This document shows positions 1,836 to 25,923 of a stretch of DNA of 64,000 nt, in pieces. The translations under genes were made by a program, and so were the position numbers. This stretch comes from Synechococcus sp. KORDI-52. Its GTDB lineage: Bacteria > Cyanobacteriota > Cyanobacteriia > PCC-6307 > Cyanobiaceae. Location of the stretch: contig NZ_CP006271.1 of the NCBI RefSeq assembly GCF_000737595.1, positions 2,046,001-2,110,000 of the forward strand, written 5' to 3'. The notes beneath the pieces were generated by a model. The model was given only the letters and a program-made list of their open reading frames with translations, searched no databases and was not told the origin of the DNA. Numbering within the stretch: position 1 is the first letter of the stretch; each line of letters starts with the position of its first letter.

Positions 1836-2570
1836 TCAGTCACGAACGGCCTCTCCCGGCAGAAGCGGAAATGGGCTGGACTGCAGAAGCCGACGAATTC
1901 CCAGCCGGTCACGCCACTGACTCAGAGGGGTCTGCCAACCCTCCTCCCACCGCTGAGCCAGAAAGGGTTGGGCCTGGGCACCAAGATTGAGGCCGTAGGC
2001 GATGGCCACGCCCACGTCCACAGCTCCACCCTCAGCCGGATCAGCATCGCTGACGCGATGAACCAAATCGGCCGCGATCAACAAGGCACTGCCAGGCCAG
2101 CGCAGCTGTTCCGTGGTCAGACCATTGGCCGCTGCCTCACCAGCCAGTGTGATCGGCAGCCCGGCGACCACATGCCAGAGATCATGGGTCTGGCGGATGC
2201 GCATCTGAAGGTAGGCGTCGTCGCCCCGTATCGCATCGGGAAGTTCTGGCGGGGGCAGATCATCCAACCCCTGCGAGGCCTTGAACAAACCGTAGACGTG
2301 TCCCAATGATCCAGCCGGCATCGCGATCAACTGAGACAGGGCTGGCCAATCCCCCCAGTAACGCTGAGAAACCAGTGGCGAAATCGCCGGATGGGTCTTG
2401 AGGCGATCACGGGCCGCCTGTGCCACGTCGGTGGAGTAGGTGGCATTGAGGAGATCAAAGGCATGATCGAGATCATTAGGATCACTGCAGAGGGCAGCCA
2501 GGTCGACAGCCAGGCGTTTCAACAGGGAGCGATTGGTCGGTGCGATCAAGACAGTTGGTTCGTTGAACAA
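1836..2570 (-). CDS. Coq4-family protein
   Basis: 244 residues. The key sign is an exact HDLWH followed 11 residues later by Glu (HDxxH-x11-E), the metal/ligand motif of Coq4, which organises ubiquinone biosynthesis in mitochondria and proteobacteria. Cyanobacteria make plastoquinone rather than ubiquinone, so the role here is open: a quinone-binding or lipid-handling protein is an inference. No signal peptide or clear membrane span is visible. The start used is TTG at 2570. No better ATG lies upstream, and the N-terminus reads naturally from there. The gene is convergent with the decarboxylase and lies just downstream of the broken kinase-like gene on the same strand, so it may share its transcript. 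Confidence 0.82.
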   Translation of the reverse strand: MFNEPTVLIAPTNRSLLKRLAVDLAALCSDPNDLDHAFDLLNATYSTDVAQAARDRLKTHPAISPLVSQRYWGDWPALSQLIAMPAGSLGHVYGLFKASQGLDDLPPPELPDAIRGDDAYLQMRIRQTHDLWHVVAGLPITLAGEAAANGLTTEQLRWPGSALLIAADLVHRVSDADPAEGGAVDVGVAIAYGLNLGAQAQPFLAQRWEEGWQTPLSQWRDRLGIRRLLQSSPFPLLPGEAVRD

Positions 2571-2613: not shown

Positions 2614-3687
2614 TCAAGCTAGAGAGGGCAGCATCTCCAACGCCTCAAGCTCAACAACGAGGGAGCAGGATCTCTCAATCCACTCATCATTCAGCAAAAT
2701 CGCACGGGAACTGATGTTGGGATCCAGCTGCCAGTTATGAAGATGCAGCACCGAACTCAAACTGCGAAGAGCTGCTAGTTGCACATCAGCCCAGGCGTCG
2801 GCAAACGCATAGTCCTTCACACCATGCGAACTCAAACTCTGATGCCAACACGTGCAAAGCTCTTGCAATCGACCACGTCGTGCAGGCATCGGAACACCGC
2901 CGCCGATGAGATAAGCGAAATCCAGGGCTGCCATCGACCGGGTGGGAGTGCCCCAGTCGAGCAAAACGACATCGCGTTGCGACGCATCCCTCCCGAACAA
3001 CACGTTCTCAACACGCAAATCGCCATGAACCAGGGTTGCTGGTCGATCCGCCATCGCGGCGTCGATGGCCTCTGAATGCTCAATGACAAGGGCGATCGCC
3101 TTGAGGGCCTCCGACTCAATCCGCAACTCATAGTCATCCAAAAAGTTGCGATAAAACGATGACAACGTGTCTGTACTTCATTGAAACCAAACCTGATGAT
3201 CAGGCAGCCAGTCATGCCCATTCAGGGCAGGAGAATTCCAGAATCTGGCATGAATCTGCCCAATGACTTCAAGCACCTGAGAACAAGCATCAGCGCTCAC
3301 ATCGCGCACCTGGTTGCCGACCTTCATGGACGAAAGGTCCTCCATCAGCAACCAGCGCCCTTCATCGCTGGAGCCATTGCCCGTCGCATAGGAGAGCGGT
3401 ACCAACGAGGAGAGCTGCGGGGCAAACAAGCGATAAAACCCCATTTCCCGGCGAAAGCAATTCAACTTCAACGCCACTTCCTGGCTGCGGGGATCATCAC
3501 TATCAATCTTGAGAATCAGGGATGAGGGCAGGTCCCCAGAATCCCCCCTGGGCCGCAGACGCATGGTGTTGGATGCAAACCCCTGAGGCACGCCCAAAGC
3601 CTCAATCTCAAGCCCTTCAACACGAAGGCCCAACTGCTCGCTGAGCCATTCGGCATCAATGGGTACACCAGAGGGAAGCGAGGGCAC
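2614..3687 (-). pseudogene. CHK/aminoglycoside-phosphotransferase-like kinase, split by one in-frame TGA
   Basis: Two stretches in the same frame, 169 and about 183 residues, are separated only by a TGA at 3178-3180. Read through, they make a protein of about 357 residues, normal for the choline/ecdysteroid-kinase-like (CHK, DUF1679) family. The first part has LLMEDLSS, a family landmark. The second has the catalytic loop VHGDLRVENVLF and the following metal-binding segment LLDWG, then LDFAYLIGGG. Both halves look well conserved, so the lesion is recent or a base-call error. The downstream half could restart at a TTG (3165), but alone it lacks the nucleotide-binding lobe. The start is GTG at 3687. 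The small-molecule substrate is unknown. Confidence 0.75.
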
Positions 3688-5024: not shown

Positions 5025-6788
5025 TTGATTTTTAAGCGACTGCCAAACTTTATCAAGAGTGAAGCATCGGCTGGGCCTGCCGCACGAATCATTGCTTCAT
5101 TAGCACCAATAACATTAGTGCTATCAGCAGGAATGCTTTCAATCAATTCATTACGCCAACAGTATATTTTTACATCTAAAGAGATACAGGGAATCGATGA
5201 TATTGAATTCCTGATTCACTTGAAAACATTACTAAAAGAGGCCCGGGGGTTAAGACAGTTCTCTGCCACGATGCCCGGACAGGATCTTCTGCTCCATAGA
5301 CAAAGCCACAGCCATAGCGATTGGTCAAACAAACTTGGGCATTCAATCGACAAACATGAGCACACAGAACACTCCGACCCTTCAGCAGAAGCCGTAAGCT
5401 CAAAGAACATAACGATCAATTCACTCATTGCTCAAAACAGAGCTGCTGTAGCCGAAATCCTTTCTTCTCGTGAATGGCTTTCAATCAAAAGACGCTATGG
5501 CTTCCACAGGGGTGACATCAAAGTGGAACTTGTTAGACAACCAGAAGACAAAGGGTTTTCCTTTGAGAAAGATTTTCAACAATACACAGACCGGATCAAT
5601 GAGCTGGATGAATACTTTGGAATTGTTGCCGATCGCTCAAATTTAATCTTAGACCCTGAGATTGACACCTACTATTTAACATTGTTAACAACATCAACCC
5701 TTCCATCAATTGCCGATCTAATCGCCCTTAGTCGAGGCCAGCGCGTGGACTACGACCTGAGAAAGAAAACCTCACAAATGAATACAGACAAGAAAAACGA
5801 AGTTTTTCTAAGATTAAGCAATTTGCTTGACTATCAACTGAGTTCTCTCAATCGAACGATTAATATTCTCGGTTACGCGTCCCCAGAATCATATAAATCT
5901 CTGAAAATCAACCGTCTTAATCTTGTCGACAAAATCAATGACCTGAGTTTTGGAATCAGATCAAAAGACTCAATGGGCTTTGATGCTGCAGTGGAGCACT
6001 GGAACGAATCAACTCAATTGCTTGAATTGCTGCAGAGCATTCAGTTCAATGGAATGTCAGTCCTTAGATGGAGGCTTGAAGAGAGACGCAGAAATATTGG
6101 ACTGGAAATCCTATTAATTTCCATACTTTTACTGACAGGAAGTTTAATAATCTTCTTTGTCAATAATCGTCTATTTGGACGGCTTGCCAATGCGCTTACA
6201 GACATCAAAATGCTTGCCAATACGGATTCATTAACCAAGCTGTTATCAAGACGTAGCTTGCCTCATTTATATCAACGCGCAATAACAGGCGAGGATAGCA
6301 ATTCTGAAGGCATTGGTCTTTGCATCTTTGATGTTGACTACTTTAAATTATTTAATGATAACTATGGTCACCTTGAAGGCGATGACGCCTTGGTTAAGGT
6401 CGCCACTTTTGTAAAAGATTCACTCCTAAGACAAACAGACTATGCATTTCGTTTTGGAGGCGAAGAATTTTTAATCATATTAAGCTCTTCCAGTCTTAAA
6501 AAATTCGAATATTTTTTACAAAGTATTCGCAGAGGCATTGAAAACCTCCAAATCAAGCACAAAGCAAGCAGTACTTCAGACTATCTCACGGTTTCGATGG
6601 GGGGGGTTTACATCCCACAAAGATCATCTGAGATCAAGCTTGACGTAGCTCTTCTGCAAGCAGATCGAGAACTTTACAAAGTAAAGCAAAGCTCAAGAAA
6701 TGCAGTTTCGATTACAACATTGACCGACAAGATGGCGTCTGAGCTAAAAAAAGAGCTGGACTGCAATACAGACCGCCGTACAGGTTGA
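5025..6788 (+). CDS. Membrane diguanylate cyclase with His-rich extracytoplasmic sensor region
   Basis: 587 residues. TM1 is about residues 21-41, then a long extracytoplasmic region, TM2 about 360-380, and a C-terminal GGDEF domain that makes c-di-GMP from two GTP. The active loop is GGEEF at 478-482, an accepted catalytic form. RQTD at 469-472 sits exactly five residues before it, matching the RxxD product-inhibition site. The sensor region has a His cluster around residues 91-118 (HRQSHSHSDW, then KHEHTEH), suggesting metal binding. It also contains an LDPEIDTYYL stretch like those in bacterial chemoreceptor and kinase sensor domains. The start is TTG at 5025, chosen because TM1 follows directly. 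Codon use is more A/T-rich than in the core genes to the right. Confidence 0.88.
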   Translation: MIFKRLPNFIKSEASAGPAARIIASLAPITLVLSAGMLSINSLRQQYIFTSKEIQGIDDIEFLIHLKTLLKEARGLRQFSATMPGQDLLLHRQSHSHSDWSNKLGHSIDKHEHTEHSDPSAEAVSSKNITINSLIAQNRAAVAEILSSREWLSIKRRYGFHRGDIKVELVRQPEDKGFSFEKDFQQYTDRINELDEYFGIVADRSNLILDPEIDTYYLTLLTTSTLPSIADLIALSRGQRVDYDLRKKTSQMNTDKKNEVFLRLSNLLDYQLSSLNRTINILGYASPESYKSLKINRLNLVDKINDLSFGIRSKDSMGFDAAVEHWNESTQLLELLQSIQFNGMSVLRWRLEERRRNIGLEILLISILLLTGSLIIFFVNNRLFGRLANALTDIKMLANTDSLTKLLSRRSLPHLYQRAITGEDSNSEGIGLCIFDVDYFKLFNDNYGHLEGDDALVKVATFVKDSLLRQTDYAFRFGGEEFLIILSSSSLKKFEYFLQSIRRGIENLQIKHKASSTSDYLTVSMGGVYIPQRSSEIKLDVALLQADRELYKVKQSSRNAVSITTLTDKMASELKKELDCNTDRRTG

Positions 6789-7220: not shown

Positions 7221-8600
7221 TCATCCCCGATTCGACTGGTTTCTGGGTGAAAGATCCTGGAAAAGTCCACCCACAATCGGCCACCAGCAGGTGCTCGCCA
7301 CCTGTTGCTCTGGAGGGAGGTCTTCAACGCGATTGATTTCCCCAGCAAAGCTATCGAGCAGCGAACCGTGCAGAAGTTCCCCCATCGCGCTGCGCAAGAC
7401 GTGATCTCCCTCCAAGGCATGACGTGCTTCCACCAGAGTTGAAGGAAGTCGGGCAGGGGGGACCTCCATACCCGCCGGATCTCCCATAACCGGAGCTGGG
7501 AGCGTAGACGGATGGCTCAACGCATGAATCACCAATGCCTGAAGTGCACCCAAAAGAAGATAGGGATTGGTGGTTGGATCCACAGCTTTGATTTCAAGGT
7601 GCGCTGAACAGTGATCCAAGGCAGTTGGAATGAGTCGCAGAGCTGCTTCCCTGTTCTCAACACCCCAGACCTGATAAGGCGCGGACCAGGTGCTGGGACG
7701 CAGCCGTAGGTAAGACACGGGGGACGGACTGGCAAGGGCGATGAGGGCCGGGAGCTTCTGGAGAAGACCTGCGATCAACGCTTCACCCTCCTGGCGTAAT
7801 CCAGCAGGGCCAGGGCCTCCCTGAAGAACTGGACCTTGCGCATCCGCCACACTGAAATGAAGATGGCCACCATTGCCCACCCAGTCCATCCTGGGTTTGG
7901 CACTGAAACTGCAGAACCAATTGAACTGGCGCGTGACACGTTGAATCAGAAGTCGGGCGCGAATCAGACCATCAGCAACGTTGAGAGGTGCGTCCGGACT
8001 GAAGGACAACTCGAATTGAGACGCTCCATATTCTGGATGAAACTGAATCCAAGGCAGATCCGCTTGATCCAGAGCCATCAGCAGTGCCGAGACGTAATCA
8101 AGGCCTTCGATCAAGCGATCAGCTCCATAGGGCCCCCCAGGGATGACGGGCTGCGGAACGCCATGGCGATCGGGTGTAACAACAACCCACTCAAGTTCAA
8201 AACCGGCAGTCATCGAGAGTCCGGCCCTCTCCAAATTGCGGCCCATCGTTCGGCAGAAAGTTCGCTGATCAGCGGCGTAAGGACCAAGGTCCCGATCCCA
8301 GCGATCACCTGCTGCCCAGGCCCAACCGTTGGCAGCATCCAGAAGCGCGATGGAATCAGGATCCGCCTTGAGGCGTAGATCACCATCGGGGCGGGTCAAC
8401 CGGTGGTGCGGTTCGATGACCCCATCTGAGCGGAAGGCATCTGATACAGGAGAAAAACCAACCCCGGTGTGGATGGCATGGTGAAGTTGCCTCACCGGAA
8501 CGACCTTCACCAGTGATTCGCCCGCATGATTCACCCAGGTGACCGCGATCTGACGCACTCCGGATTGGACCAAGGCTTCAACATCAAGGCGAGGGGACAT
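7221..8600 (-). CDS. Glutamine-synthetase-superfamily ligase
   Basis: 459 residues, cytoplasmic. Family marks are the Glu-binding strand GFELEW near residue 137, EYGASQFELSFSP (about 195-207), the NGGHLHFS motif that carries the ATP/metal His, and the Arg-containing ENREAALR near residue 335. The order and length fit glutamine-synthetase-like ligases (GlnT, PuuA or GlnA3 type), which join glutamate or a related acid to ammonia or an amine. It is shorter and more divergent than the main GlnA of cyanobacteria, so a gamma-glutamyl-amide ligase role is plausible but inferred. It is divergently placed from a sodium/solute symporter unit across about 150 bp, which suggests the two handle the same nitrogen compound. 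Confidence 0.82.
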   Translation of the reverse strand: MSPRLDVEALVQSGVRQIAVTWVNHAGESLVKVVPVRQLHHAIHTGVGFSPVSDAFRSDGVIEPHHRLTRPDGDLRLKADPDSIALLDAANGWAWAAGDRWDRDLGPYAADQRTFCRTMGRNLERAGLSMTAGFELEWVVVTPDRHGVPQPVIPGGPYGADRLIEGLDYVSALLMALDQADLPWIQFHPEYGASQFELSFSPDAPLNVADGLIRARLLIQRVTRQFNWFCSFSAKPRMDWVGNGGHLHFSVADAQGPVLQGGPGPAGLRQEGEALIAGLLQKLPALIALASPSPVSYLRLRPSTWSAPYQVWGVENREAALRLIPTALDHCSAHLEIKAVDPTTNPYLLLGALQALVIHALSHPSTLPAPVMGDPAGMEVPPARLPSTLVEARHALEGDHVLRSAMGELLHGSLLDSFAGEINRVEDLPPEQQVASTCWWPIVGGLFQDLSPRNQSNRG

Positions 8601-8754: not shown

Positions 8755-8940
8755 GTGGGTGAAGCAACAAGGATCAAGGGTTGGATGGCCATCGGCGGCA
8801 TCTGCAGCCTTGCCCTGCTGATCCAACAGCTGGTCACGACAGGGGAGACTCTCATCCTTGGTCTACCGCCCTGGATCCTGCTCTTCATCCTGTTGCAAGT
8901 TGCACTCACGATCACTGCCGCCTGGATGGCAAAGCCATGA
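8755..8940 (+). CDS. Small membrane protein coupled to the symporter
   Basis: Up to 61 residues, from GTG at 8755; an internal ATG at 8785 would give 51. Two hydrophobic spans are visible (about residues 11-29 and 38-56) with a short basic N-terminus. Its stop overlaps the symporter ATG as ATGA at 8937-8940, so the two are very likely translated together. Small two-span proteins of the DUF3311 kind commonly precede sodium/solute symporters. The position fits, but the sequence match is too weak to name the family. Confidence 0.6.
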   Translation: MGEATRIKGWMAIGGICSLALLIQQLVTTGETLILGLPPWILLFILLQVALTITAAWMAKP

Positions 8941-10394
8941 ACATCACGCTTGCCACGTCAGTGATTGCGCTGAGCCTGTATCTCGGCACCTTGATCTGGC
9001 TGGGAACCCGAGATGGGATTCAGAAGGAAGCCAATGCCGACACTTACTTTCTGGCGGATCGCCGTCTGCAAGCAGGCGTTCTCTTCTTCACACTGATCGC
9101 AACCAATTTCAGCGCATTCTTCTTCCTTGGTTTCGCGGGTGCCGGCTATCGAATCGGCATGGCCTACTACCCGATGATGGCCCTGGGAACAGGTCTGGCC
9201 GCACTGACGATCGGCAGCTTCGGTTGCAAAGTACGGCAGATCAGCAAAGACCACCAACTGATCACACCATCGGAGCTGGTGGGCCACCTGCTTCCCGGTG
9301 AGGGCTTACGGCTGCTGGTGTTTCTGCTGATGCTGATCTTCACCCTTCCATACCTGGCGCTTCAGCCCATCGGAGCTGGTTATCTGCTCGAAAGCATGAC
9401 CGGCGGTACGGTGCCATTCGGAGCCGGTGCGGTGCTTCTCACCCTCGTGATCGTGCTGTACGTGATCACAGGAGGGATGAAAGCGGTGGCCTGGACTGAT
9501 GTGCTCCAGGGAATTCTGATGTTCGTGTTGATGATTCTGGCGTTCGTCACGATCGCCCAAAGCCTTGGCGGGGTGGAACAGATCAATCGTCTGGTGATGA
9601 CTCAAAAGCCTGAGCTGTTCTCCGGAGCAGGCGTGGACACGTTCTTCTCATTGCCAACGTTCGCAAGCTATTTACTTCTTTGGCCTCTTTGCCTGCCGAT
9701 GTTTCCCCAGCTGATGATGCGTTTCTTCGCCGCGGGAGATGACCGTTCACTGAAACAATCCATGGTGCTCTACCCAGTCGTTGCGGGCGTCCTGTTCATC
9801 TTCCCTGTTCTGATCGGCGTATGGGGGCATATCAGCTTCCCTGATCTTGATGGTCGAGCCACCGATCAGGTTCTGCCGATGATGTTGAGCCAGCACAGCC
9901 CTGAGTGGGTGGTCGGACTGGTGATGGTGGGAGCCCTGGCCGCCTTCATGTCCACCCTGGATTCGCAGTTGTTGGCACTGTCTTCGATGGTCACACGGGA
10001 CATCTATTGCCGTTACTGGCGACCGAAGGCCTCCTTGATCGAGCAGGTACGTGTCGGCAAGGTTGCGGTCTGTGCACTGGCCGTGGGTGGGCTGGCCATC
10101 GCCATGCATCCACCTGAAGCAATCCTGGCACTTGCCACCAACGCGTTCTCTGGTTTGGCTGTGCTGTTTCCAATGATGGTTGGCGCGACGTACGGCATGC
10201 GCTGGTCCAACTCGGGAGCCATCCTTTCGGTGCTGGGCGGAGAAACGATGCTGCTCGGCTTGCACATGGGCTGGATTCCAGCAGGCGTGAGCGGTGAATG
10301 TCTGCCGGTTGTTCCAGCGGTGATCGTGACTTCAGGGGTGTTGTTGCTGGACCATCTGGCAAGCAGAAAACAGCTCGACAGGTCGCATCAATGA
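8937..10394 (+). CDS. Sodium:solute symporter (SSS) family transporter
   Basis: 485 residues from the ATG at 8937, which overlaps the upstream stop. The open frame extends further 5', but that part is out of character, hydrophilic and His/Pro-rich. About 13 membrane spans. The SSS signature is clear in YVITGGMKAVAWTDVLQG (near residue 180), and ATNFSAFFFLGFAGAGYR near residue 55 is typical of the first core helices. The family imports small solutes (sugars, amino acids, pantothenate, urea, monocarboxylates) with Na+. The substrate is not readable here. The divergent glutamine-synthetase-like gene hints at an amino compound. Confidence 0.88.
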   Translation: MNITLATSVIALSLYLGTLIWLGTRDGIQKEANADTYFLADRRLQAGVLFFTLIATNFSAFFFLGFAGAGYRIGMAYYPMMALGTGLAALTIGSFGCKVRQISKDHQLITPSELVGHLLPGEGLRLLVFLLMLIFTLPYLALQPIGAGYLLESMTGGTVPFGAGAVLLTLVIVLYVITGGMKAVAWTDVLQGILMFVLMILAFVTIAQSLGGVEQINRLVMTQKPELFSGAGVDTFFSLPTFASYLLLWPLCLPMFPQLMMRFFAAGDDRSLKQSMVLYPVVAGVLFIFPVLIGVWGHISFPDLDGRATDQVLPMMLSQHSPEWVVGLVMVGALAAFMSTLDSQLLALSSMVTRDIYCRYWRPKASLIEQVRVGKVAVCALAVGGLAIAMHPPEAILALATNAFSGLAVLFPMMVGATYGMRWSNSGAILSVLGGETMLLGLHMGWIPAGVSGECLPVVPAVIVTSGVLLLDHLASRKQLDRSHQ

Positions 10395-10558
10395 GCAGCA
10401 ATACAAAACGATCGCTCGAAAAGAGAAACAAACTTACAAATCTAATCACCACACAACGTGAGCATTCATCGCTTCCAAACGAACAGCCGAGTAAAGCAAA
10501 ACAGAGAGTAACGACGCCTGAGCAATCAAAAATAAAGACAAACGGTCAAATTTCATAG
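10391..10558 (+). CDS. Possible small basic protein after the symporter
   Basis: 55 codons. The ATG overlaps the symporter stop as ATGA, so translation could be coupled. The product is very rich in Lys, Ser, Thr and Gln, with no hydrophobic core and no recognised family. Its end overlaps the end of the converging cyclase gene by 13 bp. The start/stop overlap is the only argument for it. Confidence 0.25.
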   Translation: MSSNTKRSLEKRNKLTNLITTQREHSSLPNEQPSKAKQRVTTPEQSKIKTNGQIS

Positions 10559-11994
10559 GAAATATTATTTGCATCGCAGGTAAAAATGGAAGCCTGATTA
10601 CGGCCTCTAGATTTAGAGCGGTAAAGCTCTTGATCAGCGAGATGAATCGCATCATCCATCGTCAGTCCGCCAGGATTATTCACATAACATGCACCACAAC
10701 TGACCGTAACCGCCTCAAAACTGACACCATTATGTTCAATCGAGAGACCCCGAACAGAAGCGAGCAGACGAGAACAGTAGCCTTTAAAGTTTTCGCCGGA
10801 CATATCAAACAAAATGATCAAAAACTCTTCTCCTCCGTAGCGAAAACATTCATCAAGGGGACGCAACAACAAACCAGACAGACATTGGGCAATCGAGACC
10901 AAGACCTCATCACCCTTTCTATGTCCATAAACATCATTGAATCGCTTAAAATGATCAACATCAACCATGACAATGCCAATGGAGCTGGATGTTCGTTGCG
11001 CCTGTTTCCAGGTTCGAAGACCATAGGTATCAAGCGACCTCCGATTACCAATCTGACATAATTGATCAGTCATGGAAAGATCATTTAGAGTCCTGAAAGA
11101 GAAGCTAAGGCGCTCAAGTATTCCAGAAATCATGAGTCGTAGCATCGCGATTTCTCTCACGCCACCAGTTGAGTCCTGAAGTTTCCTCGATATATCCTCA
11201 AGGCCTATAATAGCTTGGGATGTATCAGCATTTTTATCAACAATCGGAATAGCAGAAGCAAATGATGAAATCGCCTCCAGAGGTTTCACAATTGTTTTCT
11301 GATAGACAATAAAAGACAAACCTATTGCTGCCAACGACACAATAACAAGAGCAGCAAGAAGCATCTGTTCATAGAAGAGATCAAGCTCTTCCAATTGAAC
11401 TTCAAGCGACAATGCCAATTCATTCAAATCCTTGTGTGATGCAACAAGATTGCTTCGAACCATCCGTAGATCGGTTAAAGGATATGAACGCAGAAGCTGC
11501 AGCACATCATCTCGACTTAATTCACGGTTGAGAAGCAAGTATGAGGAGACAACCCGCTCAGCACGTAAAATGCGAAGATGAGCCGAATCAAACTCCTTTG
11601 TAATCAACAAGGGAAACTCATCCTGAGTAAGCCTAACCGAATCATCAACAAAAATAGAATTGAGAAATGTAAGTTTTTCCTCCAAATCCACGACAAGGCT
11701 TCTTGGAGCAGATGTAGATACTCGTGGAGCGAGAAGAAAATCTTCTTTGATTTGGTTCACTTCACCCAACAGAGCGGCCAAACGGACAAACTGATCCTCT
11801 TGCACAAGAGCGGAGTTGAGCTGCTGTTTTAACCTCTGGGACGAGGTCCAGGAAAACGACTCAATCAAGAATGTCGAAAAAAGGATGACAAAGACTGTGC
11901 CAAGTTGGATGTAGAGGACAAGTCGTCCCGCGCTGCTGTTCAAACCAGTAAGCCGCTTTAACCATGAACGCCGCAGAGGCTCTGACACGTTCAT
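10546..11994 (-). CDS. Membrane diguanylate cyclase coupled to a periplasmic binding lipoprotein
   Basis: 482 residues. TM1 is about residues 26-46, an extracytoplasmic helical region follows, TM2 is about 211-231, and a HAMP-like linker leads to a GGDEF domain. The catalytic loop is GGEEF at 387-391, with RPLD at 378-381 forming the RxxD inhibitory site. The ATG at 11994 overlaps the stop of the upstream lipoprotein gene (TGA at 11993-11991), a 4-bp overlap implying translational coupling. The likely mechanism (inference) is that the lipoprotein binds a ligand outside the inner membrane and contacts the sensor region to set c-di-GMP output, as NspS does with MbaA in Vibrio. Confidence 0.88.
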   Translation of the reverse strand: MNVSEPLRRSWLKRLTGLNSSAGRLVLYIQLGTVFVILFSTFLIESFSWTSSQRLKQQLNSALVQEDQFVRLAALLGEVNQIKEDFLLAPRVSTSAPRSLVVDLEEKLTFLNSIFVDDSVRLTQDEFPLLITKEFDSAHLRILRAERVVSSYLLLNRELSRDDVLQLLRSYPLTDLRMVRSNLVASHKDLNELALSLEVQLEELDLFYEQMLLAALVIVSLAAIGLSFIVYQKTIVKPLEAISSFASAIPIVDKNADTSQAIIGLEDISRKLQDSTGGVREIAMLRLMISGILERLSFSFRTLNDLSMTDQLCQIGNRRSLDTYGLRTWKQAQRTSSSIGIVMVDVDHFKRFNDVYGHRKGDEVLVSIAQCLSGLLLRPLDECFRYGGEEFLIILFDMSGENFKGYCSRLLASVRGLSIEHNGVSFEAVTVSCGACYVNNPGGLTMDDAIHLADQELYRSKSRGRNQASIFTCDANNISYEI

Positions 11995-12935
11995 GGCAAG
12001 TAACGATCTGAAACCACAGGAGATGGAGTGTCCTGTCGAATTAAATTCAGATGCTCCATGACTTGCTTGACGGACTCAATATTTCGTACGATTGGTCCAT
12101 TAGAAGCCATCAACATCTTTTGCTCATTGACGTTGGCCTTAAAGGCAATACCCTTCAATGTTTGCCTAAGTTGCTCAATGGACAAATTCAAGCTTGATGC
12201 GATAAAAGAACTGGATGCCACCTCTTGCTCGGATGCATAGCGGTGAGCCAGAAACCAACTAGCAACCACTGAGGAAACATCATCTGGTCGTGATGTAACA
12301 ACAGATGGCGAGACGGCAAGAACATCAAGAATCTGGCCAGGGATCTGAGAGCTGTCGAAAATAGTTTGTGCACCATAGGATCTCACCTTTTCACTATTGG
12401 GGGGATACAAAACAGCAGCATCGACCACGCCTGTCGCTAGAGCTTCTGGCATATCTGAAAGAACCATGGGGTTGATACTCAAATCGTCAATTGTCAGACC
12501 AACCGACATCAGTGCCTTGTGCAAAACAAACGGGCCGAAAGAGTTGCTAGCGACAGCGACTCTTGTGCCAGCAAGATCATCAACGTTATTGATATGAAAG
12601 GACATAATCTGATCACCACCAACTGATTCATTCAAGACCAACACAACAACGGGACATTGTTCAGGTAGTTTCGAACAAACATCTAAAATATCAACAGTGG
12701 TCAGCTGAACAACGTCAAGTTCTCCCCGCAAATAGGACCTCACCACCTCTGACTGATCGACCAGCGGGATAACCTCTGCGTTCGAAACAAATCCCTTCGA
12801 CACAGCAAGGTTGAGATATTCGTAACCAGGCCACTCCGAATGGGAGATTTTTAATGGTTGACTACGGATTAAACTGCATGCAGAAAGGCCAAAAGTAATC
12901 GCCAAACAAGGTAATACCCTTAGAAATCCAAACAC
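11991..12935 (-). CDS. SsuA/NMT1-like solute-binding lipoprotein
   Basis: 314 residues. The N-terminus has a signal peptide ending in a lipobox (LSACS, Cys near residue 21), so the mature protein is probably lipid-anchored at the outer face of the inner membrane. Sequence landmarks fit type 2 binding proteins for taurine/nitrate/thiamine precursors (SsuA, NrtA, THI5-like): EWPGYEYLNLAVSKGF, the switch segment GELDVVQLTTVD, LAGTRVAVASNSFGP, and ALATGVVDAAVLYPP. No ABC permease or ATPase gene follows. The next gene, overlapping by 4 bp, is a diguanylate cyclase, so this protein probably serves signalling rather than transport. The ligand is unknown; sulfonates, nitrate or polyamines are candidates. 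Confidence 0.83.
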   Translation of the reverse strand: MFGFLRVLPCLAITFGLSACSLIRSQPLKISHSEWPGYEYLNLAVSKGFVSNAEVIPLVDQSEVVRSYLRGELDVVQLTTVDILDVCSKLPEQCPVVVLVLNESVGGDQIMSFHINNVDDLAGTRVAVASNSFGPFVLHKALMSVGLTIDDLSINPMVLSDMPEALATGVVDAAVLYPPNSEKVRSYGAQTIFDSSQIPGQILDVLAVSPSVVTSRPDDVSSVVASWFLAHRYASEQEVASSSFIASSLNLSIEQLRQTLKGIAFKANVNEQKMLMASNGPIVRNIESVKQVMEHLNLIRQDTPSPVVSDRYLP

Positions 12936-12979
12936 TTAAAGGTGATTCTCAGGAATTACATCTTTAATTATAGAAGCAG

Positions 12980-13070
12980 GAGGCCTATGATTCAAGAAAA
13001 TCTCAGACAACTATCAGAGAAGCATGAGGCCTATGATTCAAGAAAATCTCAGACAACCATCAGAGAAGCA
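12980..13070. repeat. 46-bp tandem duplication
   Basis: Two adjacent copies (12980-13024 and 13026-13070) start with GAGGCCTATGATTCAAG and differ at a single base (ctat versus ccat). The unit period is 46 bp, not a multiple of three. Each copy carries a purine-rich GAGG and an ATG, so the duplication duplicates a translation start and shifts the frame between them. Confidence 0.9.
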
Positions 13071-13251
13071 GAATGATTCGCTACTGTTGCTGTACAAAAG
13101 GGTTAAGGAACTGTTTGACGTGCAGCCAAGGCATTGGCAAGATCTCATCAATAAAATCAAACGATACGAGGACCAGAACATGAGCAATAACAGGAAAATC
13201 AAACTTGCACATTGTTCAAAATGGTGCCAGAGATCTCTAGAGCAGATATAG
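13033..13251 (+). CDS. Small hypothetical protein with duplicated start region
   Basis: 72 codons from the second-copy ATG. A further ATG at 13024 is in frame. The product begins MIQENLRQPSEK and is hydrophilic and probably helical (LLLLYKRVKELFDVQ near the middle). The first repeat copy has its own GGAGG-CCT-ATG start, but from it the frame closes after 29 codons because of the 46-bp shift. No family is recognised, and the 3' end overlaps the end of the converging EAL-protein gene by about 50 bp, which lowers confidence. Confidence 0.3.
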   Translation: MIQENLRQPSEKQNDSLLLLYKRVKELFDVQPRHWQDLINKIKRYEDQNMSNNRKIKLAHCSKWCQRSLEQI

Positions 13252-14869
13252 GCTTAGACTTATAATAACCTTGAAAAAGATGACAGCCATGGGCAATCAA
13301 GAATTCCATCTGCTCTTTTGTCTCAACACATTCGGCACAGACCTCCAGACCAAGCTCGTTGGCCATCGATATGGTGCCTTTTGCAATGGCTGCATTTGAT
13401 AGTTTAGTTGGCAATCCAACGATAAAACTGCCATCTATTTTGATGCATTTGATGGGCAAAGCCTGCAGGATTGACAAGGAAGAGAATCCTGTTCCAAAGT
13501 CATCAATGCATAGGTCTACACCGATACGAGTGAGGTCGTCAAACAATTCTTTCGCTTTACACAAGTCAGTCAACAAAGAGGTTTCAGTAAGCTCAATTTT
13601 TATATTTTTCGGGGAAGTTTTATATTTTTCACAGCACTCTTTGATTTGCTTGGCATAGGAAAATCCAGTGTTTTTATAGTATTCAACTTGTATAGCCGAA
13701 AAATTTAAAGCCAAAGATATATCCTTGAATTCTTTTTTCAATAATTGAACAGTTTTGACTGCCTCCTCAAGAACCCAGTCCCAAATACGGTGGATCATTC
13801 CTGAGGATTCAGATAAGGGAATAAACAACTCAGGAGACACCTGTTGCCCATCGTGAACCCATCGACACAAGACCTCAAACCATTTTACTTCACCGAATTG
13901 ATCGAAAATTGGTTGATAGACAAGACTGAGCTCGTTCTTTTTAATAGCAACAGAAAGATTTGCTAGAATTTCTATCTCGTCATCAGTTTTTGTTTTTCTT
14001 AGCGAAGCCAGCTGCGAGGGATGAATAAAGTCATTAATTCGTGATTTTTGAGACTTTTTGGCAGACAACATGATTGCATCAGCCTTCCTGAATCCCTCCA
14101 AAATTCCGTCTTGCTCTGATGACATGCAGACACCAACTGCTGCATTAATTCCTGCCGCAATCAGTTCATTGCTAAGTCGATTATGAATAGAACTTGAGAT
14201 ATCTTCTTTAGATTTAAACAAAAGACAAAATTCATCACCCCCTGTTCTGTAGACTTTATCTTGATTGTTTCTAATCAAGCGGTGAAGAGTAAGGCCAAGC
14301 CTTTTAAGAACTCGATCTCCAGCTTCATGGCCAAAATCATCATTAATACTTTTAAAGTCATTAAGATCTACAACCGCAACACAATATTTATGCCGGCAAC
14401 ACCCCAGAACTCTATCATTTGCTTCAATCAAATCCCAAGCCTTTCGATTCAAGCATCCAGTAAGACTATCGACATGAATATCCTTCTGGCTGGTGATGTC
14501 TGTAAAAATCCAAACACGTGATCTAGCAGAATGCGGGCCTGGGAAAACAATGCTATTTCTTGCAAAGACACGGCCATCTTTAAATCTTATTTCATCATTC
14601 CAGGGCTGATCGCATCCATGAAGTGATTCAATCGTTTTCAAAAACTCTGTAGGATCAACGACTTGCTCTACAACATGATTCAAAAGAGCATAATCGTCGC
14701 CCTGATGAGCGATATTTCCAGGGATGCTCCACATACTCGTAAACTTTTCATTAAAGTAGATAACTTCTCTCGTTTCATCGTTAACGATTAAAATACCGTC
14801 AAGTAATTGATTAACGGTTAGGTCAAGCAGCTGAGCCAAAGCCTCAGGCTTACAGTTCGAGAAAAGCAT
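13199..14869 (-). CDS. PAS-GGDEF-EAL protein (probable c-di-GMP phosphodiesterase)
   Basis: 556 residues, soluble. A PAS-like sensor (about residues 15-130, DGILIVNDETREVIYFN) is followed by a GGDEF domain with an intact GGDEF at 210-214. Its inhibitory site is lost (NNQD where RxxD is expected). The EAL domain runs from about 315 to 545: EVL replaces EAL (FEVLCRW), and other catalytic residues are kept, namely the Asn in LNFSA, ELTETSLL, the DDFGTG pair of Asp, the Lys in KIDGSFI, and QGYYKSKP. The chain therefore looks competent to degrade c-di-GMP, with the GGDEF part possibly a GTP sensor. It sits 0.3 kb from the coupled lipoprotein/cyclase pair on the same strand. Confidence 0.88.
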   Translation of the reverse strand: MLFSNCKPEALAQLLDLTVNQLLDGILIVNDETREVIYFNEKFTSMWSIPGNIAHQGDDYALLNHVVEQVVDPTEFLKTIESLHGCDQPWNDEIRFKDGRVFARNSIVFPGPHSARSRVWIFTDITSQKDIHVDSLTGCLNRKAWDLIEANDRVLGCCRHKYCVAVVDLNDFKSINDDFGHEAGDRVLKRLGLTLHRLIRNNQDKVYRTGGDEFCLLFKSKEDISSSIHNRLSNELIAAGINAAVGVCMSSEQDGILEGFRKADAIMLSAKKSQKSRINDFIHPSQLASLRKTKTDDEIEILANLSVAIKKNELSLVYQPIFDQFGEVKWFEVLCRWVHDGQQVSPELFIPLSESSGMIHRIWDWVLEEAVKTVQLLKKEFKDISLALNFSAIQVEYYKNTGFSYAKQIKECCEKYKTSPKNIKIELTETSLLTDLCKAKELFDDLTRIGVDLCIDDFGTGFSSLSILQALPIKCIKIDGSFIVGLPTKLSNAAIAKGTISMANELGLEVCAECVETKEQMEFLIAHGCHLFQGYYKSKPISALEISGTILNNVQV

Positions 14870-19671: not shown

Positions 19672-20130
19672 GGCCCCTAAAACTGATGTCCACATACGGT
19701 ACGAGGGGAGGCTTTGGGCGCCAGCAGCTTCACATTGAGTAAGCATCAGAAATCACTCAACCGCAGACGAACTGTTCGGCAGAACAACAAATTAATAGAA
19801 GCTTTGCGTCCGTGAAGGGTTGATCAGAGCTCGAACAACACGATCGGTAGCCGATCCATCATTCCGTTCATGCAAGCAGCGACACAATAAAAGCAATTCA
19901 TCTCCAGCCGTGATGACGCAAATCAGTGCCAGCCACACTCAGTTGCAGACCATCACGAATGCAACCCCAAAAGCACCGCAACTCAAACCACGCCCAGTGC
20001 ACACACCGCCCAAACCTGCTTGAGCCGTCCGAAGGCCTGCCCGACCGGAATTCGTGTTCTGTAACAGCCTGAACGACACGTGGATGGACAACCCCTCTAT
20101 AGAGGGTTTGTGGCAACCGCTACCCAATCA

Positions 20131-20206
20131 CGTTCACCTCGTCTTCGGCGAGGCGCAGTTCGACTCAGGCCATGGAACGGGGACCTGAGCTTGCTTCGAG
20201 GAACCC
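20131..20206 (+). ncRNA. Probable glutamine riboswitch ('downstream-peptide' RNA)
   Basis: The leader just before a 34-codon DUF4278 gene folds as a three-way junction. P1 pairs GTTC (20132-20135) with GAAC (20201-20204). P2 pairs CCTCG (20137-20141) with CGAGG (20149-20153). P3 pairs CTCAGG (20164-20169) with CCTGAG (20184-20189). The opening CGTTCA and the closing TTCGAGGAAC resemble the conserved ends of the glnA/downstream-peptide glutamine aptamers of cyanobacteria. Those RNAs are known to precede very short ORFs. The GAGGA in the P1 strand lies 5 nt before the ATG, so ligand binding would hide the ribosome site. The family match is by eye. Confidence 0.6.
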
Positions 20207-25446: not shown

Positions 25447-25923
25447 GGGTTGCTGATTGAAGGCTCCATAGGCTTCCGCTGCCGTCGGCTGAACCCTTGC
25501 TTTGTTCTCCGTCTATCGAAATCAGTGGGGTAGAAATCATGATGACGGCGCAGTAGCAGGCGATACGAAAACGAGGTCACTCACTCGTTTTTCAGGAAAC
25601 TGAGATTTGCGAGAGAAATGGTGGCAGGCCTCGCAACCTGCCCCCACACTGGGTCCCCAGATGGTTTTGACGCTGTCTTGGCAGCTCGGGTGAGCGACCC
25701 GTTGGCTGGCAGTAAAAGCACCCTTGGCACGAGCGATTGTCAGGGGGTGCTTTCTGCGCTTGTTGCAAACTCGAAGAAATTTGGTGCATTTGCCACACAC
25801 GTTGGTGATCCGCCGAAGGTGATTGAGCGGATACTGCATCGCTCGGGGAGGACTCGCTCCTCCTCGCAGTTCCGTGGCCCCAAGTCCTTGTTTCGGTTGT
25901 TATCCCACCGACGGAGGGGTCTG

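Follow-up and report, generated by a model that had tools for sequence, protein, structure and literature searches.

Does a solute-binding protein (SBP) whose gene overlaps that of a diguanylate cyclase (DGC) take part in import, or does it report a ligand to the enzyme? The question is raised by a locus of the marine-type cyanobacterium Synechococcus sp. KORDI-52 that lies in a stretch of 64,000 nucleotides (hereafter the window, to which all coordinates refer). The inputs sensed by c-di-GMP enzymes are mostly unknown and, if the second answer holds, picocyanobacteria would gain a chemical, not a light, input to c-di-GMP. According to a 2022 review, SBP_bac_3 is the only one of the PBP-clan domains to have been studied in c-di-GMP networks (PMC8846402). 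A first-pass annotation had proposed that here a periplasmic SBP feeds a c-di-GMP enzyme.

Organization of the cassette

The SBP gene (11991-12935, minus strand; 314 aa, GTG start) encodes an SsuA/TauA/NMT1-type lipoprotein belonging to what we call below the signalling clade. It is followed on the same strand by the gene of a two-TM DGC (10546-11994; 482 aa, ATG start), the ATG of which lies on the SBP stop codon in a 4 bp ATGA overlap (11991-11994, minus strand). The coordinates and the overlap had been given exactly by the first-pass annotation. The SBP/DGC pair that it described stands, but as a two-gene unit it is incomplete: a third cassette gene, encoding a PAS-GGDEF-EAL protein (13199-14869, minus strand; 556 aa), had been overlooked 263 nt upstream. 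The order of transcription on the minus strand is PAS-GGDEF-EAL gene, 263 nt gap, SBP gene and DGC gene. The gap holds two tandem copies of a 46 nt repeat (12967-13058, strand not assigned; 91% alike), which overlap a promoter-like TTGAAT-17-TATAAT site upstream of the SBP gene (12967-12995, minus strand); this site is a consensus match only, and the regional count of such matches is not above that in shuffled sequences. By eye, the repeats are not seen in the two other cassettes described below (genomes G101 and G374). No ABC transporter genes follow the pair, as had been stated; the flanking ORFs encode an SSF symporter (8781-10394, plus strand) and a glutamine-synthetase-like protein (7221-8600, minus strand).

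The window also contains features outside the cassette. Two adjacent minus-strand ORFs (2614-3165 and 3178-3687) look like one broken gene, each matching a different half of an ecdysteroid-kinase-like/APH family. A Coq4-like protein (1836-2570, minus strand) is encoded near a TPP-enzyme gene, which is unexpected since cyanobacteria are not known to make ubiquinone. On the plus strand are a glutamine-II riboswitch (20128-20189) and a Cyano-2 RNA (25680-25882).

The binding protein and the two predicted c-di-GMP enzymes

By both profile and predicted fold, the SBP is a type II solute-binding protein of the NMT1/SsuA family. Its N-terminus (...LPCLAITFGLSACSL) carries the lipobox LSA/C, with Cys20 as the lipobox cysteine. 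It scores 28.3 bits against Pfam NMT1 (PF09084), above the cut-off of 20.5, and 80 bits against SsuA (TIGR01728) and 73 bits against TIGR03427, both below their cut-offs (163.5 for the former). Searched as a single sequence, it has no match in the PDB at E 0.01; a match required a profile. The AlphaFold2 model (mean pLDDT 95.8 from 59 sequences) adopts a predicted type II binding-protein fold that is nearest to TauA (PDB entry 6ssy; VIA Z 31.6, rmsd 2.6 over 281 residues), followed by SsuA (PDB entry 2x26; Z 29.9), with 16-17% identity to the two. The partner that would make it a binding protein for ABC import is missing from the locus, where neither a permease nor an ATPase gene is adjacent.

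The DGC consists of a first TM segment, a helical periplasmic region of about 160 residues, a second TM segment, a linker and a GGDEF domain with an I-site. Two hydrophobic peaks are found, in 19-residue windows starting at residues 26 and 212, and the GGDEF domain matches PF00990 at E 2e-36. The active site RPLDECFRYGGEEF starts at residue 378, with RPLD (an RxxD I-site) five residues before GGEEF, so that the protein carries the marks of a membrane diguanylate cyclase (GGEEF, I-site and TM segments), its catalysis being predicted. The model is confident for the GGDEF part; the sensor part is all-helical and mostly below pLDDT 70, and it matches no Pfam family. Shared ancestry with the DGC sensors of loci L079-L081 is not claimed: the alignment is collinear with a score that is not significant. 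The SBP gene thus adjoins the gene of a membrane receptor with a periplasmic region, which is the layout of SBP-receptor pairs.

The PAS-GGDEF-EAL protein retains the EVL, LNFS, ELTE, DDFG, KID and QGY motifs, and from these motifs the cassette likely encodes both a maker and a breaker of c-di-GMP. Neither PilZ nor ComFB has a match in the KORDI-52 genome, despite nine GGDEF matches. Several of the latter are clustered at about 2036-2060 kb, a possible c-di-GMP hotspot, and the window encodes a further GGDEF protein (5025-6788, plus strand; 587 aa), which lies in another patch of low GC.

Recurrence and probable transfer of the cassette

A search of 400 Cyanobiaceae genomes finds the DGC sensor region in three (KORDI-52, G000; G101; G374). 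In all three the SBP gene lies directly upstream of the DGC gene with the same 4 bp overlap and is itself preceded, at a distance of 262-282 nt, by a GGDEF-EAL gene. The search for this neighbourhood that the first-pass annotation had called for therefore finds it in two other genomes. Since the overlap recurs with orthologues there, and the adjacency of SBP and signalling genes recurs across the clade, the pairing goes beyond chance.

The three genomes represent two genera and have unrelated flanks; DNA similarity among the cassettes is limited to 10586-14800 of the window, with the flanks outside it. The cassette has a GC content of 39-45% compared with 55-60% (for the window and the fetched loci only), the other two cassettes are likewise low, and one genome of 34 in the genus carries the DGC. 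Together, the low GC, the rarity and the confinement of similarity to the cassette point to a transferred module. The same low GC and rarity would be expected of an acquired island that is decaying and no longer functions; we regard this as very improbable, given that all three frames are intact, the catalytic motifs are kept and the proteins are still 54-64% identical across genera.

Relatives of the binding protein

Relatives of the SBP in Cyanobiaceae fall into two sets, one with an SBP-permease-ATPase arrangement and the other beside GGDEF, GGDEF-EAL or kinase genes. The latter often shows two tandem SBP genes with a 4 bp overlap, then a GGDEF gene, and a divergent GGDEF(-EAL) gene on the flank. 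With a profile of this signalling set, we scanned 84,980 species, each represented by one genome, and obtained 79 loci; cyanobacteria, gammaproteobacteria, planctomycetes, verrucomicrobia and bdellovibrios are among the groups represented. With few exceptions, the SBP gene there is either followed by a histidine kinase, GGDEF or GGDEF-EAL gene or facing one. Because the two peptide patterns of the scan derive from signalling SBPs, the set is biased towards that clade; gene context played no role in choosing the sequences.

In a tree built from 127 SBPs, 118 sequences lie on the signalling side. Of these, 100 have the gene of a histidine kinase, GGDEF or EAL protein within 450 nt, and none that of a permease; the remainder include contig ends, outer tandem members and true singles. 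The downstream partners are histidine kinases, hybrid histidine kinases, GGDEF or GGDEF-EAL proteins, often with a 4 bp overlap, and the partner labels are clustered (25 changes versus 75 in shuffles). The seven ABC-linked members form one group (starred on the tree) apart from the signalling clade, the deeper branches having mixed support, by SH-aLRT only.

These data bear on the alternative of an orphan transport role, in which the SBP would work with a distantly encoded ABC permease and would adjoin the DGC only incidentally. The fold of the SBP and its closest solved relatives, TauA and SsuA, are those of ABC binding proteins, and SBPs can serve remote permeases. However, no clade member on the tree stands beside a permease, and the SBP co-occurs with the DGC and not with a transporter. 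The first-pass annotation had named a co-occurring ABC partner elsewhere as evidence that would count against its proposal; for the SsuC-type permease of the nearest ABC-linked relatives, there is no match at E 1e-3 in the KORDI-52 genome or in G092. We therefore consider an orphan transport role to be improbable.

About equally improbable is that the SBP acts mainly with another receptor or with the GGDEF-EAL protein, the overlap reflecting co-expression only. In many Cyanobium-type loci, indeed, an SBP gene not only precedes a GGDEF gene but is also divergent to GGDEF or GGDEF-EAL genes. Yet no TM peak or periplasmic part is predicted in the GGDEF-EAL protein of the window, which precludes direct contact with the SBP, whereas the DGC has a periplasmic part.

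Several loci show other arrangements. In L071, L083, L085 and similar Cyanobium/Vulcanococcus loci, a tandem SBP1-SBP2 pair with a 4 bp overlap precedes a GGDEF gene; the two SBPs fall on separate branches, which suggests a two-SBP receptor. In L101, L111 (Shewanella), L114, L118, L126 and other non-cyanobacterial loci, the clade SBP gene is directly upstream of a histidine kinase gene. Many of these kinases, from several phyla, are large hybrids, and their ligands are seemingly unreported. The window SBP is one of a large family of binding proteins, apparently not yet described, whose genes adjoin those of signalling enzymes in many bacteria; the literature searched, which covers a minority of subscription journals, contained no paper joining NMT1-type SBPs to kinases or c-di-GMP enzymes.

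Candidate ligand

Guanidine-I riboswitches occur near the ABC-linked relatives in six of seven Cyanobiaceae loci, and the one fully annotated operon of this kind also encodes an arginase-family (GdmH-like) enzyme and HypA/HypB. Such gene content has been described for the guanidinase (GdmH) operon of Synechocystis (PMC12186494). Thirty further cyanobacterial relatives carry the WPGW and D-[NH]-S-x-G-N-D motifs; of the 20 scanned among them, 11 have the riboswitch within a short locus, and some of the rest have HypAB. From the riboswitches, the GdmH-like enzyme and HypAB, the ABC-linked relatives are probably guanidine importers.

The signalling clade and the ABC-linked relatives have W35, G37, T79, D/N102, S104, G106, D108, P199 and D204 in common, all of which except position 102 are listed as conserved in the clade; S104 and D108 are found in 118/118 signalling and 7/7 ABC-linked SBPs. 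The signature (W-x-G, T, D-x-S-x-G-x-D and P..D) is kept in the window SBP, with N102 replacing the first aspartate, and its residues would form the pocket. TauA and SsuA lack the polar signature, except for D204 in TauA and the glycine at position 37 in SsuA. As the signature is shared with probable guanidine importers, a small cation, perhaps guanidinium, is a fair guess for the ligand. Taurine, nitrate and polyamines, the ligands put forward initially, are not favoured, as the closest ABC-linked relatives resemble guanidine importers; sensing of polyamines or taurine by analogy was set aside on the same ground.

A narrower proposal, compatible with a sensor role, is that the SBP senses guanidine itself, or a close guanidinium compound, through an importer-type pocket. 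The riboswitches and GdmH-like gene of its relatives and the shared signature speak for it, but we hold it as a tentative and rather doubtful refinement. The SBP is only about 30% identical to the importer SBPs; position 38 is mostly tyrosine in the signalling clade versus tryptophan in importers, and position 201 is mostly glutamate versus alanine (glutamine in the window SBP, which also has N102). Furthermore, the guanidine-I riboswitch is absent from nine of 13 signalling-SBP genomes tested and from the surroundings of nine other signalling loci. It (RF00442) has no match in the KORDI-52 genome, including the window, and none of the parts of a guanidine-importer operon (permease, ATPase, riboswitch, GdmH/HypAB) lies beside the window SBP.

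Proposed mechanism

The reading that we favour with good confidence is that the SBP is the periplasmic ligand sensor of the DGC and thereby controls c-di-GMP, as the first-pass annotation had proposed. The conserved gene order, the negative permease search and a clade whose neighbours are signalling and not ABC genes all support it. The SBP would be exported, lipidated and retained in the periplasm as a dedicated receptor subunit rather than an import component. A small solute (less surely, a guanidinium-like or other small cation) would bind between the two lobes of the SBP, of which either the open or the closed state would dock on the periplasmic helices of the DGC. Docking would alter the geometry of the DGC dimer across the membrane and switch c-di-GMP synthesis by the GGDEF domain; the cytosolic PAS-GGDEF-EAL protein would probably degrade c-di-GMP, resetting the signal. 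Ligand binding, SBP-DGC contact, the direction of regulation and the enzyme activities are all inferred. Since related SBPs pair with receptors that show no detectable sensor similarity to the window DGC, the docking surface cannot be generic. Against this reading, adjacency within signalling-gene islands could in part be hitch-hiking.

More speculatively still than the guanidinium refinement, and in our view unlikely as a whole, a family of lipoprotein SBPs with the pocket residues of guanidine importers may have been given over to signalling in several phyla. Guanidinium-type compounds outside the cell would be the cue, passed on to histidine kinases or, in the picocyanobacterial case, to c-di-GMP enzymes, and the cassette would be a mobile example. 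Guanidine currently attracts interest as a candidate ligand. In an NMT1-type clade linked to both kinases and c-di-GMP enzymes, knowing what one SBP binds may reveal the input of many orphan receptors.

Comparison with known systems

The SBPs of cyanobacterial guanidine ABC importers are the nearest ABC-linked relatives and share D-x-S-x-G-x-D and the other signature positions with the window SBP, which differs in its separate tree branch and in having no adjoining permease, ATPase, riboswitch or guanidinase gene. The sulfonate ABC importer proteins TauA and SsuA have the fold in common with it, but not most of the polar signature.

In NspS-MbaA of Vibrio cholerae, a membrane enzyme performs both the synthesis and the degradation of c-di-GMP, and its activity is set by the ligand state of a periplasmic binding protein (PMC8967002). 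The proposed logic of the window cassette is similar, and to this extent the comparison drawn by the first-pass annotation is apt. It goes no further: the window SBP is of the NMT1/SsuA and not of the PotD polyamine-binding type, and, unlike the bifunctional MbaA, the receptor carries GGDEF alone, the EAL domain being found on another, cytosolic protein. The cassette is not a member of the NspS-MbaA system. Vibrio parahaemolyticus ScrB-ScrC presumably differs as well, in having a GGDEF-EAL receptor and a different SBP. This pair is cited as an example of an SBP-linked c-di-GMP enzyme (in PMC9602780).

Many relatives of the window SBP are encoded directly before histidine kinases, a likeness to the known SBP-histidine kinase pairs. 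Compared with one of these, TorT-TorS, the output of the window cassette would be c-di-GMP, and TorT is an SBP of a different type. In TorT-TorS and other such pairs the SBP gene adjoins the receptor gene (PMC9602780, PMC11113362), and the activation of receptors by SBPs is of an established kind (PMC9602780).
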